Assembly: GCF_002250625.1 (NCBI RefSeq)
Contig: NZ_NMVQ01000004.1
Coordinates: 1 to 64,000 of the forward strand
Reading direction: 5' to 3'
DNA length: 64,000 nucleotides
DNA from: Enemella dayhoffiae
GTDB taxonomy: Bacteria; Actinomycetota; Actinomycetes; Propionibacteriales; Propionibacteriaceae
In this document: positions 44,547-46,809 of the stretch, piece after piece
Layout of the letters: each line of letters starts with the position of its first letter
Position numbering within the stretch: position 1 is the stretch's first letter
Made by a program: the position numbers and the translations under genes
Notes under the pieces: model-generated
Told to the model about the DNA's origin: nothing
Databases searched by the model: none
Seen by the model: the letters and a program-made list of their open reading frames with translations, nothing else

Positions 44547-44602
44547 ACATCGGGGAACCGGGACCTCGCGCGGGCAGTTGTTCTGCTCGAGAGGAGCCGC
44601 CG

Positions 44603-45337
44603 ATGTCCAAGAAGAAGTCCAAGAGCCAGGCCCCGCAGAACGCCCGCCAGCGCGCCGCCATTCTCGAGGCGCGCCGCAGGAAGAAGGCCGCGGTGCAGCG
44701 CAACGTCATCATCTCCGCCGCGGTGATGGCCGTCGCCGCCCTGGTGATCGGTCTGGTCGTCGGGATCGGCAGCATGGCCCGCGAGCAGGAGGCCGCCGGC
44801 GGGCCCGCGGGTCAGCTGGTCCGCGCCGACAGCGTCCATCTGAACCGGGTCGAGAACGCCCCGGTCACAGTGGTGGAGTTCCTGGACTTCGAGTGCCCCG
44901 CCTGTGCCGCGCTCTATCCGACGATGGAGCAGACCCGCGCGACCTACGGCGATCGGGTGAACTTCGTGATGCGCTACTTCCCCCTGCCCGGCCATCAGAA
45001 CGCCATGGCCGCGGCCCGCGCCGTCGAGGCCGCCGGCCAGCAGGGCCAGTGGGAGGCGATGTACCGCAAGATGTTCGAAACCCAGAACCAGTGGGCCGGC
45101 CGGCCGGGCGTCGACGCGCTGTTCCGCGGGTACGCCGCAGAGCTCGGCCTGGACGTGACGGCCTGGGAGGCGGCGTACAACGACCCCGCCACCACCGACC
45201 GGATCGAGGCCGATCAGGCCGACGGTGAGGCGCTCGGGGTGACCGGTACCCCGACGGTCTATGTGAACGGCGATGAACTGCAGCTGCGCAGCTACGCCGA
45301 CCTGCCGGCCGCGATCGAGGACGCGCTCGCCGCGTGA
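44603..45337 (+). CDS. Membrane-anchored DsbA-like thiol oxidoreductase, copy 1
   Basis: A 244-residue protein with a basic cytoplasmic N-terminus, one membrane helix at about 35-57 and an exported thioredoxin-fold domain. The redox motif is CPAC at 98-101 in VEFLDFECPACAALYP, and the cis-proline loop is TGTPTVYVNG. It should form or shuffle disulfides outside the membrane. It starts a three-gene set with a second DsbA-like protein and VKOR, which would reoxidise it. GAGAGGAG precedes the ATG. Confidence 0.9.
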   Translation: MSKKKSKSQAPQNARQRAAILEARRRKKAAVQRNVIISAAVMAVAALVIGLVVGIGSMAREQEAAGGPAGQLVRADSVHLNRVENAPVTVVEFLDFECPACAALYPTMEQTRATYGDRVNFVMRYFPLPGHQNAMAAARAVEAAGQQGQWEAMYRKMFETQNQWAGRPGVDALFRGYAAELGLDVTAWEAAYNDPATTDRIEADQADGEALGVTGTPTVYVNGDELQLRSYADLPAAIEDALAA

Positions 45338-45342
45338 TCCGC

Positions 45343-45390
45343 AACAACTACCCCGTCCTCGGGAACCTGGACGGGCGGCCCGGCGTTGTT
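45343..45390 (+). repeat. Nested hairpin between the two DsbA-like genes
   Basis: CCCGTCC (45352-45358) pairs with GGACGGG (45369-45375), and outside it AACAAC (45343-45348) pairs with GTTGTT (45385-45390). The ribosome site GGAGAGGAG follows directly. It could attenuate transcription or tune translation of the second copy. Confidence 0.55.
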
Positions 45391-45409
45391 CCTCTGGAGA
45401 GGAGCCCCC

Positions 45410-46141
45410 ATGCCCAACAAGCCCCCTTTGCCCCGTAACGCCCGTCGGCGCGCGGCAGCGATCGAGGCCGAACGCAAGCGCAAGGCCGCGATCCGGCGCA
45501 ATGTGATCATCTCTGCCTCGGTGCTCGCGCTGGCGGCGATCGTGATCGGCACCGTCGTGGCGATCGGAAACGTCAACCGGCAGCGGCAGGCGGCCGCCGC
45601 CCCGCCCGCCGAGCTGGTTCGCACCGACAGCGTCTACCTGAACCGGGTGCCCGACGCCAAGGTCACCGTGGTCGAGTTCCTGGACTTCGAGTGCGAGGCC
45701 TGCGGTGCGCTCTATCCGACGATGGAGCAGGCCCGCAAGACCTACGGTGACCGGGTGAACTTCGTGGTCCGCTACTTCCCGATCGAGAGCCACTTCAACT
45801 CGATGCGGGCCGCGCGGGCGGCGGAGGCCGCGGGCAAGCAGGGCAAGTGGGAGCAGATGTACCAGATGATGTACGAGACCCAGACCCAGTGGGCCGAGCA
45901 GAAGGTGCCGCAGGATCAGGTGTTCCGCGGCTTCGCGCAGCGGCTCGGTCTCGACATGGCCGCCTGGGAGGCGGCGTACAACGACCCGGCCACCGAGCAG
46001 CGGATCAAGGCCGACCAGAATGACGGCATCGCGCTCGGTGTGCAGGGCACCCCGACCGTCTTCGTCAACGGCAAGCAGCTCCAGCTGCGCTCCGCCACCG
46101 ATCTGACGAACGCGATCGATCAGGGGCTGGCCGGCGGATGA
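45410..46141 (+). CDS. Membrane-anchored DsbA-like thiol oxidoreductase, copy 2
   Basis: A 243-residue paralogue of the preceding gene with the same plan: basic start, one membrane helix at about 33-53, and a thioredoxin domain with CEAC at 95-98 and QGTPTVFVNGKQL as the cis-proline loop. The change from CPAC to CEAC should shift the redox potential, so the two may differ in partner or direction. ATG at 45410 follows GGAGAGGAG. Its stop overlaps the VKOR start (ATGA). Confidence 0.9.
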   Translation: MPNKPPLPRNARRRAAAIEAERKRKAAIRRNVIISASVLALAAIVIGTVVAIGNVNRQRQAAAAPPAELVRTDSVYLNRVPDAKVTVVEFLDFECEACGALYPTMEQARKTYGDRVNFVVRYFPIESHFNSMRAARAAEAAGKQGKWEQMYQMMYETQTQWAEQKVPQDQVFRGFAQRLGLDMAAWEAAYNDPATEQRIKADQNDGIALGVQGTPTVFVNGKQLQLRSATDLTNAIDQGLAGG

Positions 46142-46809
46142 GCACGCTCGAGGAGCGCACGTCGACGGCCGAGGGGCCCACGGCCGAGGAGGAGACCTCG
46201 GCGGGCGCCGCGCTGCCCGAGCCCGAGGACCAGCCCGGGCTGCGGGGCCGGACCAGCGGGATCCTGCTGGCCGTGCTCGGCGGGATCGCGTGGGTGGCGG
46301 CCTTCGTGCTGATCCTGGAGAAGCTGCAGACGCTGCGCGACCCGAACTACCAGCCGAGCTGCAGCATCAACCCGGTGCTGTCCTGCGGGTCGATCATGGC
46401 CTCCGACCAGGCCGAGGTGTTCGGCTTCCCGAACCCGCTGATCGGCGTCGCCGGTTTCGCCGTCGTGATCACCCTGGGGGTGGTGCTCGCCGCCGGTGTC
46501 GCCCTGCCCCGCTGGATCTGGCTCGGCCTGCAGGCCGGGGTCACCTTCGGGCTGGGATTCGTGTGCTGGTTGGTCTTCCAGTCGCTCTACCGGATCGGGG
46601 CGCTGTGCCCCTACTGCATGGTCGTCTGGGCGGCGATGATCCCGATGTTCTGGCTGGTCACCGCGGACAACCTGGTCAAGGGCCGGATCCCGGCCGGCGC
46701 CGGCGTCCGCCGGGTCGTCGGGATGCTCGGCGGGATCCCCGTGGTGGCGGGCTATGTCGCGATCGCCCTGCTGATCCTGGTGCGCTTCTGGTCCTTCTGG
46801 GTCTCCTGA
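46138..46809 (+). CDS. Vitamin K epoxide reductase (VKOR) family protein
   Basis: A 223-residue membrane protein with about five helices. Cys75 and Cys83 in CSINPVLSCGSIM are the loop pair, and Cys157-Cys160 in ALCPYC are the active-site pair beside the quinone. In bacteria without DsbB, VKOR moves electrons from DsbA to quinone. The overlap with the second DsbA-like gene fits that job exactly. The first 40 residues are acidic and cytoplasmic. Confidence 0.93.
   Translation: MSTLEERTSTAEGPTAEEETSAGAALPEPEDQPGLRGRTSGILLAVLGGIAWVAAFVLILEKLQTLRDPNYQPSCSINPVLSCGSIMASDQAEVFGFPNPLIGVAGFAVVITLGVVLAAGVALPRWIWLGLQAGVTFGLGFVCWLVFQSLYRIGALCPYCMVVWAAMIPMFWLVTADNLVKGRIPAGAGVRRVVGMLGGIPVVAGYVAIALLILVRFWSFWVS

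Follow-up and report, generated by a model that had tools for sequence, protein, structure and literature searches.

Tandem membrane-anchored DsbA-family proteins with CPAC and CEAC active sites, a linked VKOR and putative extracytoplasmic function sigma promoters in Enemella dayhoffiae

The stretch analysed here, hereafter the window, is the first 64,000 nucleotides of Enemella dayhoffiae contig NZ_NMVQ01000004.1 (assembly GCF_002250625.1, positions 1-64,000, forward strand), and it contains two adjacent genes for DsbA-family proteins followed by a gene for VKOR (Table 1). A preliminary description of this DNA had proposed that the two are tandem paralogues that keep the same anchor and fold but differ in the redox dipeptide, and that VKOR overlaps the second, and both proposals hold. 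DsbA1 (CPAC) and DsbA2 (CEAC) are 65-66% identical, each has a single, N-terminal hydrophobic segment and no cysteines apart from the active-site pair, and the VKOR start codon overlaps the end of dsbA2 by 4 nt (ATGA). The dsbA2 start was set at the ATG at 45410; the TTG at 45386 in the list of open reading frames (ORFs) is upstream of the Shine-Dalgarno sequence. Below, G000 is the genome of the window (completeness rated at 98.6%), G002 is a second species of the same genus and G008 belongs to another genus.

Table 1. Genes and putative expression signals of the dsbA1-dsbA2-VKOR locus
Feature	Position	Strand	Details
P1, putative ECF-sigma promoter	44553..44582	+	-35 GGGAAC (44553-44558), N18, -10 GTTGTT (44577-44582)
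Shine-Dalgarno GAGAGGAG of dsbA1	44589..44596	+	
dsbA1	44603..45337	+	244 aa, membrane-anchored DsbA-family, CPAC (Cys98, Cys101)
P2, putative ECF-sigma promoter, dsbA1-dsbA2 gap	45361..45390	+	-35 GGGAAC (45361-45366), N18, -10 GTTGTT (45385-45390)
Shine-Dalgarno GAGAGGAG of dsbA2	45397..45404	+	
dsbA2	45410..46141	+	243 aa, membrane-anchored DsbA-family, CEAC (Cys95, Glu96, Cys98), Glu163
VKOR	46138..46809	+	223 aa, loop Cys75/Cys83 (CSINPVLSC), Cys157/Cys160 (CPYC)

Both DsbA proteins have the thioredoxin domain, CxxC and cis-proline of the DsbA family and score above the cut-offs of the DSBA and Thioredoxin_4 profiles (PF13462, 90.2 and 82.1 bits; PF01323, 69.9 and 67.7 bits). AlphaFold models (mean pLDDT 91.9 for DsbA2 and 91.1 for DsbA1) predict a DsbA fold with a long helix at the N terminus, and the inserted helical domain is present as helices between strands 116-122 and 216-219 of the DsbA2 model. 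The solved structures closest to that model in fold include those of a Silicibacter oxidoreductase (Z 22.5), of BdbD (21.7) and of Caulobacter ScsC (21.4), with TsdA (Z 19.0) and Mt-DsbA (4k6x, Z 17.8) lower in the list. The Mt-DsbA structures were absent from both a single-sequence search with DsbA2 (E 0.001) and a profile search, which, given the fold match, appears to reflect only sequence distance. Isomerases of the DsbC/DsbG type have an N-terminal dimerisation domain; neither model has a separate N-terminal domain, and the N terminus is one long helix with the hydrophobic segment. VKOR matches PF07884 at 150.6 bits and has the two expected cysteine pairs and one further cysteine. An identity of the CExC proteins with the Rcas_1661 seleno-lipoprotein family was considered and rejected, as the scores (63.7 and 65 bits) are far under the cut-off of 190.

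The wider family was assembled from the G-numbered relatives, including the two window proteins, and from 80 named loci (the best 80 of 295), found with search patterns that leave out the CxxC. Rows were kept at 250 bits or more if they contained the string [FV][LVM]D[FL]EC..C; none was left out by the string and six by the score, and the 142 rows kept gave 104 distinct sequences once identical ones were merged. The string presets Glu94 and both cysteines, and their invariance in this set is thus no result. The CxxC motifs are CEAC (75), CEGC (17), CESC (8), CPAC (2), CPSC (1) and CDDC (1), so that a glutamate directly follows the first cysteine in 100 of the 104 sequences; because of this preponderance we read CEAC as the ancestral and ordinary form and CPAC as the derived, deviant copy. 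This is the opposite of what the familiar CPxC would lead one to expect. Among 391 genomes of the order, three have the exact signature EFLDFECPxC, namely G000, G002 and G047; among 393 of the class there are again three, G000 and two further genomes. Thr-Pro at 214-215 is invariant among the 104 rows, and threonine precedes the cis-proline in both DsbA1 and DsbA2. In 44 of the 80 named loci there is a VKOR gene on the same strand at a distance of no more than 300 nt, and in 43 of these it is downstream. Across 198 genomes of the bacterial family, DsbA2 matches (1e-25) have a patchy occurrence (25 genomes), and VKOR is present in 108. Our literature searches returned no report of CEAC together with DsbA (CEAC appeared with thioredoxin only in a metabolic-disease review), and no measured counterpart of the acidic CEAC site.

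When all well-filled alignment columns were scanned against loss of Glu96, there was a single standout, position 163. Glutamate occupies it in 93 of the 100 Glu96 rows, the other seven having His (3), Gly (2) or Asp (2), and the four rows that lack Glu96, from three lineages, have Asn or Gly; in DsbA1 the residue is Gly166, at the site of the glutamate of most relatives. Two CPxC proteins found after the prediction from this association, L207 and L208, both have Gly here, such that all six non-Glu96 rows are without Glu163, representing five lineages if these two are separate; the top-listed relatives of both are CExC proteins, with identities of about 49-58%. Three plasmid-encoded members (CEAC or CEGC) all have the glutamate in the loop. 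In the DsbA2 model Glu163 is part of the loop that joins helix 158-161 to helix 169-178, and in our reading of loose pairwise alignments it is two residues past the counterpart of Mt-DsbA Glu165. The latter is reported to lie near the catalytic cysteine, and its SaDsbA equivalent to influence the pKa of that cysteine (PMC3792642).

Discussions of redox tuning in DsbA proteins usually centre on the CxxC dipeptide and the cis-proline, and the association suggests a view in which a glutamate inside the CxxC acts with a second one in the facing loop of the helical domain. Tentatively, it is possible that the CExC DsbA proteins linked to VKOR make up a class of their own in actinobacteria, with an active site tuned by this acid pair, which perhaps shares a proton, and that the pair has been lost as a unit in several lineages to give the classical, strongly oxidising CPxC form; here both versions would sit side by side, each under its own stress promoter of the extracytoplasmic function (ECF) type, as two redox settings served by one VKOR under envelope stress. 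Several observations count against a strict pairing: the two positions were chosen from the scan itself, seven Glu96 rows are without Glu163, the CDDC row still has an acid (Asp) at position 96, and L207 and L208 are outside the tree. Two natural proteins that differ at Glu96 and Glu163 but have the same scaffold and the same VKOR beside them would let the effect of the distant acid on potential or partner choice be tested.

The same tandem and VKOR are present in G002 (locus L044) with the same neighbours, whose proteins are 88-93% identical. In G008 there is one CEAC gene with VKOR, and the neighbours shared by G000 and G002 are missing; among other members of the genus, G001 and G003 have neither such a gene nor VKOR, and G004 has one CEAC gene (53% identical) with VKOR. 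The five DsbA proteins of G000, G002 and G008 form one clade (support 100/100) within which the two CPAC proteins are a subclade (100/99). This grouping and the leader common to all five genes bear out the earlier proposal that the duplication included the 5' region. Orthologues are separated by synonymous distances of 0.41-0.50 and paralogues by 0.57-0.62, and the distances to G008 are 0.61-0.67; the duplication thus appears to date from about the time of the G008 split. A complication is that the G008 CEAC protein groups with the CPAC pair (99/81), on a short branch that bootstrapping has not settled; should that grouping be correct, the duplication would have to be older and the outgroup used below would be the wrong one, which would tell against our account of the duplication.

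Between G000 and G002 the CPAC orthologues differ by dN 0.21 and dS 0.50 (dN/dS 0.42) and the CEAC orthologues by dN 0.095 and dS 0.41 (dN/dS 0.23), and a Tajima test with G008 as outgroup counts 42 unique changes in the CPAC copy versus 15 in the CEAC copy, and 42 versus 17. At the protein level the CPAC copy thus seems to have evolved about twice as fast. One explanation is that DsbA1 is a redundant dosage duplicate with the function of DsbA2, its faster change being due only to relaxed constraint on a spare copy; the rate ratios agree with this, VKOR itself has a rate like that of the CPAC copy (G000-G002 dN/dS 0.435, with 0.15-0.20 for two neighbour genes), and the CxxC and cis-proline are kept in both copies. 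We nonetheless find it doubtful, since CPAC is retained in both tandem-bearing species, four other lineages combine a change at position 96 with the loss of Glu163, and CPAC is described as a working active site in Mt-DsbA (PMC3792642).

A version of this site free of the module was not found in the genomes checked for its neighbours. The SDR gene (P0004) had no match in five genomes (G001, G003, G004, G008 and G031) at a strict threshold (E 1e-60) and with no positive control, and the pentapeptide protein gene (P0005; 1e-20) is present in three of six, namely G002, G008 and G031, and absent from G001, G003 and G004. Between the pentapeptide gene and dsbA1, G002 has what by eye resembles an iron-siderophore ABC transporter set (L044 2285-5980), where the G000 counterpart is only 111 nt. 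A second, seemingly independent tandem is present in G134 (L047 6712-8966), comprising CDDC and CEAC genes and VKOR, with the CDDC copy on a very long branch.

The likeness of the two leaders, also part of the preliminary description, is clear: within the 64 kb, GTTGTTCNNCTNGAGAGGAGCC with up to three mismatches is confined to the two leaders (0.02 occurrences expected). Similarly, GGGAAC-N18-GTTG occurs twice in the window, both times before a dsbA gene (0.07 expected; one of 100 shuffles had two), although both patterns were written after the leaders had been seen. A pattern-free alignment of the five leaders from G000, G002 and G008 shows GGAACC, GTTG and GAGAGGAG to be invariant, and the gap from GGGAAC (AGGAAC in G008) to GTTG is exactly 18 nt in all five. 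With blocks cut by the pattern, summed identities over the ten pairs are 56/60 for the -35 and 40/40 for the -10 element, compared with 92/180 (51%) for the spacer and 58/205 upstream. The arrangement matches GGAAC-N18-19-GTT, the published sigma-H/sigma-E promoter consensus of Corynebacterium glutamicum (PMC10012870), and thus the upstream signal of a sigma-E / sigma-H(R) regulon as defined in that organism; the C at the fifth -35 base would fit sigma-E as well as sigma-H, and the reported SigR consensus is GGAAT-N18-19-GTT (PMC9205884). Because the -35 and -10 blocks are kept at 18 nt while the spacer has diverged, and because the published consensus is matched, the common leader is most likely an ECF-sigma promoter with a Shine-Dalgarno sequence, carried along in the duplication.

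Genome-wide, GGGAAC-N18-GTT occurs 11, 18 and 6 times in G000, G002 and G008 (reversed pattern 1, 4 and 0), and GGGAAT-N18-GTT 15, 22 and 18 times (reversed pattern 1, 1 and 0). Genes after GGGAAC sites include rbpA (G002 and G008), trxB and DoxX (G008), and rpmE and the gene after sigE (G000); those after GGGAAT sites include sigR (G000 and G008), trxA (G000), clpB (G000 and G002), and rbpA and rpmE (G008). The names RbpA, TrxB, TrxA, ClpB and DoxX, as well as those of G008's L31 and sigma genes, were assigned by eye from translated starts, and above-cut-off profile matches were obtained for SigR-type (TIGR02947, 340.9 bits), RsrA (TIGR03988, 82.4), SigE (NF007229, 293.9) and L31 (116.8). We note that rbpA is a reported SigR target in Streptomyces (PMC9205884) and that rpmE and trxB1 are listed among M. 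tuberculosis SigH targets (PMC4803200). The protein encoded after sigE matches zf-HC2 above the Pfam cut-off, with NCBIfam anti-sigma models only below theirs, and the gene probably encodes an anti-sigma factor. Directly before it, in the 3' end of sigE, is a GGGAAC-N18-GTT site (G000 C11, L156 1501-1527); cseE, for the C. glutamicum anti-sigma-E, has a listed promoter of the GGAAC-N18-19-GTT type (PMC10012870).

Several results detract from the promoter interpretation. A spacing scan with GGGAACN{12,24}GTTG gave no peak at N18 in G000 (5 of 84 sites, with 17 at N17), and its reversed-pattern control is not neutral (84 v 63, 89 v 58 and 50 v 31), so the genome-wide enrichment is weaker than the N18 counts alone suggest. 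The genes downstream were inspected for 30 of 35 GGGAAC and 30 of 55 GGGAAT sites, and many of the sites are not obviously placed as promoters. The five leaders share common descent, and a similar upstream element (GGAA[CT], 17-19 nt, GTT) is present in six of the 99 other family members (the 99 include L106, whose contig ends, making its upstream slice wrong). Even under this looser rule, the idea that CExC proteins in general have an ECF-type promoter is therefore rejected.

An alternative is that the likeness of the leaders is that of a translation-start region left from the duplication, with the whole operon read from a single upstream promoter. The strong Shine-Dalgarno sequence in each leader and their common descent would be explained in this way, as would the missing N18 peak. 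We think it rather unlikely, given that the -35 and -10 elements keep their spacing around a half-diverged spacer, even in the single-gene G008, and agree with a published consensus. The added nested hairpin that the preliminary description saw in the second leader does not stand: the RNA of the 72-nt intergenic stretch has a fold no more stable than that of shuffled sequences (z 0.08), the best local hairpin (45349-45379; z -1.5) is matched by 15 of 200 shuffles, and the G002 counterpart is at z 0.70 and 0.91. The available excerpts of the literature describe no ECF-driven DsbA-VKOR pair, and searches joining a sigma factor, GGAAC/GTT, dsbA and actinobacteria found nothing.

Beyond the tandem, DsbA1 has one match in the genome, a distant DsbA at C23 (P0006; 27% identity over 172 alignment columns), whose best PDB matches are Mt-DsbA (4k6x, 5e-16) and then MdbA. 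The dsbA1-dsbA2 pair would therefore not be the whole system, the third protein being apparently of the Mt-DsbA/MdbA type. The window's VKOR is the only VKOR match in the genome, and no DsbB match was found there by a search whose control was positive in six of 14 genomes. With no second VKOR and no DsbB found in a genome rated 98.6% complete, the single VKOR may serve all three DsbA proteins.

Taken as a whole, the locus is best read as an auxiliary, stress-inducible pair of oxidases recharged by the one VKOR found in the genome, in which a duplication that included the promoter gave rise to a copy with a neutral CPAC site; we assign this reading a probability of roughly 0.6. VKOR would pass electrons from reduced DsbA proteins to quinone, so recharging them, a role suggested here by synteny. 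DsbA2 would be the ancestral VKOR partner and DsbA1 the tandem duplicate with a copied promoter. Each dsbA gene may have its own promoter of the sigma-E / sigma-H(R) type, with VKOR presumably transcribed from P2, and envelope or thiol stress would raise expression of both dsbA genes through the sigma factor concerned. DsbA1 would have lost both the CxxC glutamate and the second glutamate, in the helical-domain loop, to give a neutral CPAC site as in Mt-DsbA, with DsbA2 retaining the acidic site. The most likely role of the two proteins is that of thiol oxidases, a default adopted because of the VKOR linkage; they may differ in potential or client reach and are probably served by the same VKOR. 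DsbA2 is expected to be less oxidising than DsbA1, because a glutamate beside the catalytic cysteine should disfavour the thiolate; Mt-DsbA, with CPAC, is reported to be strongly oxidising (-99 mV, with a cysteine pKa of 4.2; PMC3792642). The genes, the duplication, the CEAC ancestry, the rate asymmetry, the promoter-like footprint and the residue association come from the sequence analysis itself, whereas the activity of the promoters, the sigma factor involved, the redox difference and the sharing of VKOR are inferred. DsbA, VKOR and sigma-E/H promoters are all known; the promoter reading, the CEAC ancestry and the Glu96-Glu163 association are new. The locus also suggests that Actinobacteria can use oxidative folding as an accessory function open to induction, with its genes among metal genes in relatives and under an ECF-type promoter here.

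Parts of this arrangement have counterparts in known systems. Mt-DsbA (Rv2969c) is likewise described as membrane-anchored and VKOR-linked, with Thr before the cis-proline and the CPAC of DsbA1 (PMC3792642). It has a second, structural disulfide (PMC3853704), whereas DsbA1 and DsbA2, with two cysteines each, have no such disulfide in the helical domain and by this feature fall outside the Mt-DsbA/MdbA subfamily; the sources available mention no tandem copy of it, and the window genome has its own protein of that type elsewhere, on C23. The top two single-sequence PDB matches of DsbA2 are structures of Corynebacterium diphtheriae TsdA (7unn and 4pwo; 4e-7 and 3e-7), reported to be a membrane-tethered, inducible backup to MdbA that is raised at 40 C (PMC9974433). 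It differs in its CPFC motif and in a promoter that is described as extended -10 like and not as ECF, and C. diphtheriae is reported to lack a VKOR homologue, unlike the window module (PMC9974433). C. glutamicum NCgl2478, annotated as DsbA, is a thiol protein reported to be directly under the ECF stress sigma factor SigH; however, it has CPFC and is described as a mycothiol-dependent reductase and not an oxidase, with VKOR not mentioned in the text available (PMC8280269). In Streptomyces coelicolor a VKOR (SCO1507) is reported to be under secretion-stress control by CutRS, but this is a two-component system and not an ECF promoter, and SCO1507 and the DsbA SCO2634 have distant locus numbers (PMC10433416).

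The setting of the relatives is a different one. Three plasmids carry CEAC or CEGC members of the family with VKOR beside metal-related genes: those for a multicopper oxidase, CopC, organomercurial lyase, a P-type ATPase and ArsR in Rhodococcus, for CopC, P-type ATPases and ArsR in C. glutamicum, and for Nramp, ArsR, a P-type ATPase and a cation diffusion facilitator in Gordonia. Matches to ArsR (40), P-type ATPase (30), CopD (23), CopC (8) or multicopper oxidase (2) are present in 59 of the 80 named loci (934 kb in total) versus none of 60 shorter control loci (182 kb). The literature on copper and mercury resistance plasmids and DsbA gave no mention of VKOR among the matches listed. ScsC acts in the suppression of copper sensitivity in Gram-negatives, and a similar module, protecting exported cysteine proteins against copper or mercury, could be envisaged here; ScsC structures are near folds (7rgv, Z 21.4, rmsd 1.9 over 166 aligned residues; also 6mhh), and the relatives have the metal-related surroundings just described. 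We consider it unlikely for the window, as no such metal match is near the module in G000, G002 or G008 (loci L044 and L045 included), the one ArsR-like ORF being 43 kb away, and this clade has an ECF-type promoter instead; unlike ScsC, the window proteins have an N-terminal membrane anchor and a VKOR partner. The control is also small, at about 3 kb per locus, and ArsR is a broad family. Overall the family looks like an accessory stress-folding cassette that is often mobile, and in this clade apparently chromosomal with an ECF-type promoter.

A cassette of DsbA (CEAC) and VKOR (CPWC) is 98-100% identical at the DNA level, over the 3.0-3.7 kb compared, in ten genomes of five genera (g9, g10, g12, g22 and g34; loci L050 1296-12937, L051, L010, L011, L026 and L028-L034). 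Between G013 and G025 the identity extends for about 11.6 kb, and there are P-type ATPase and ArsR matches on L050 and L051. The cassette is likely a recent mobile element.

The preliminary description had also raised a division into oxidase and isomerase, with one copy oxidising and the other shuffling disulfides, which we regard as very improbable. A glutamate within the CxxC raises the cysteine pKa in the CEPC of ResA, and could in this way favour reduction or isomerisation in DsbA2. The threonine before the cis-proline, known in isomerases (PMC3853704), is common to both copies; the dipeptide cannot tell one activity from the other, because Mt-DsbA with CPAC is both strongly oxidising (PMC3792642) and, in another study, able to refold scrambled RNase A, though not reduced hirudin (PMC3853704); neither model has an extra N-terminal domain; and the usual adjacency of CExC DsbA genes to VKOR points to an oxidase.

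Finally, four loci (L017, L018, L019 and L023) have DsbA-like domains (CEFC or CPFC) late in frames of 620-696 codons that include a membrane-like part, and these proteins are probably transporter fusions.

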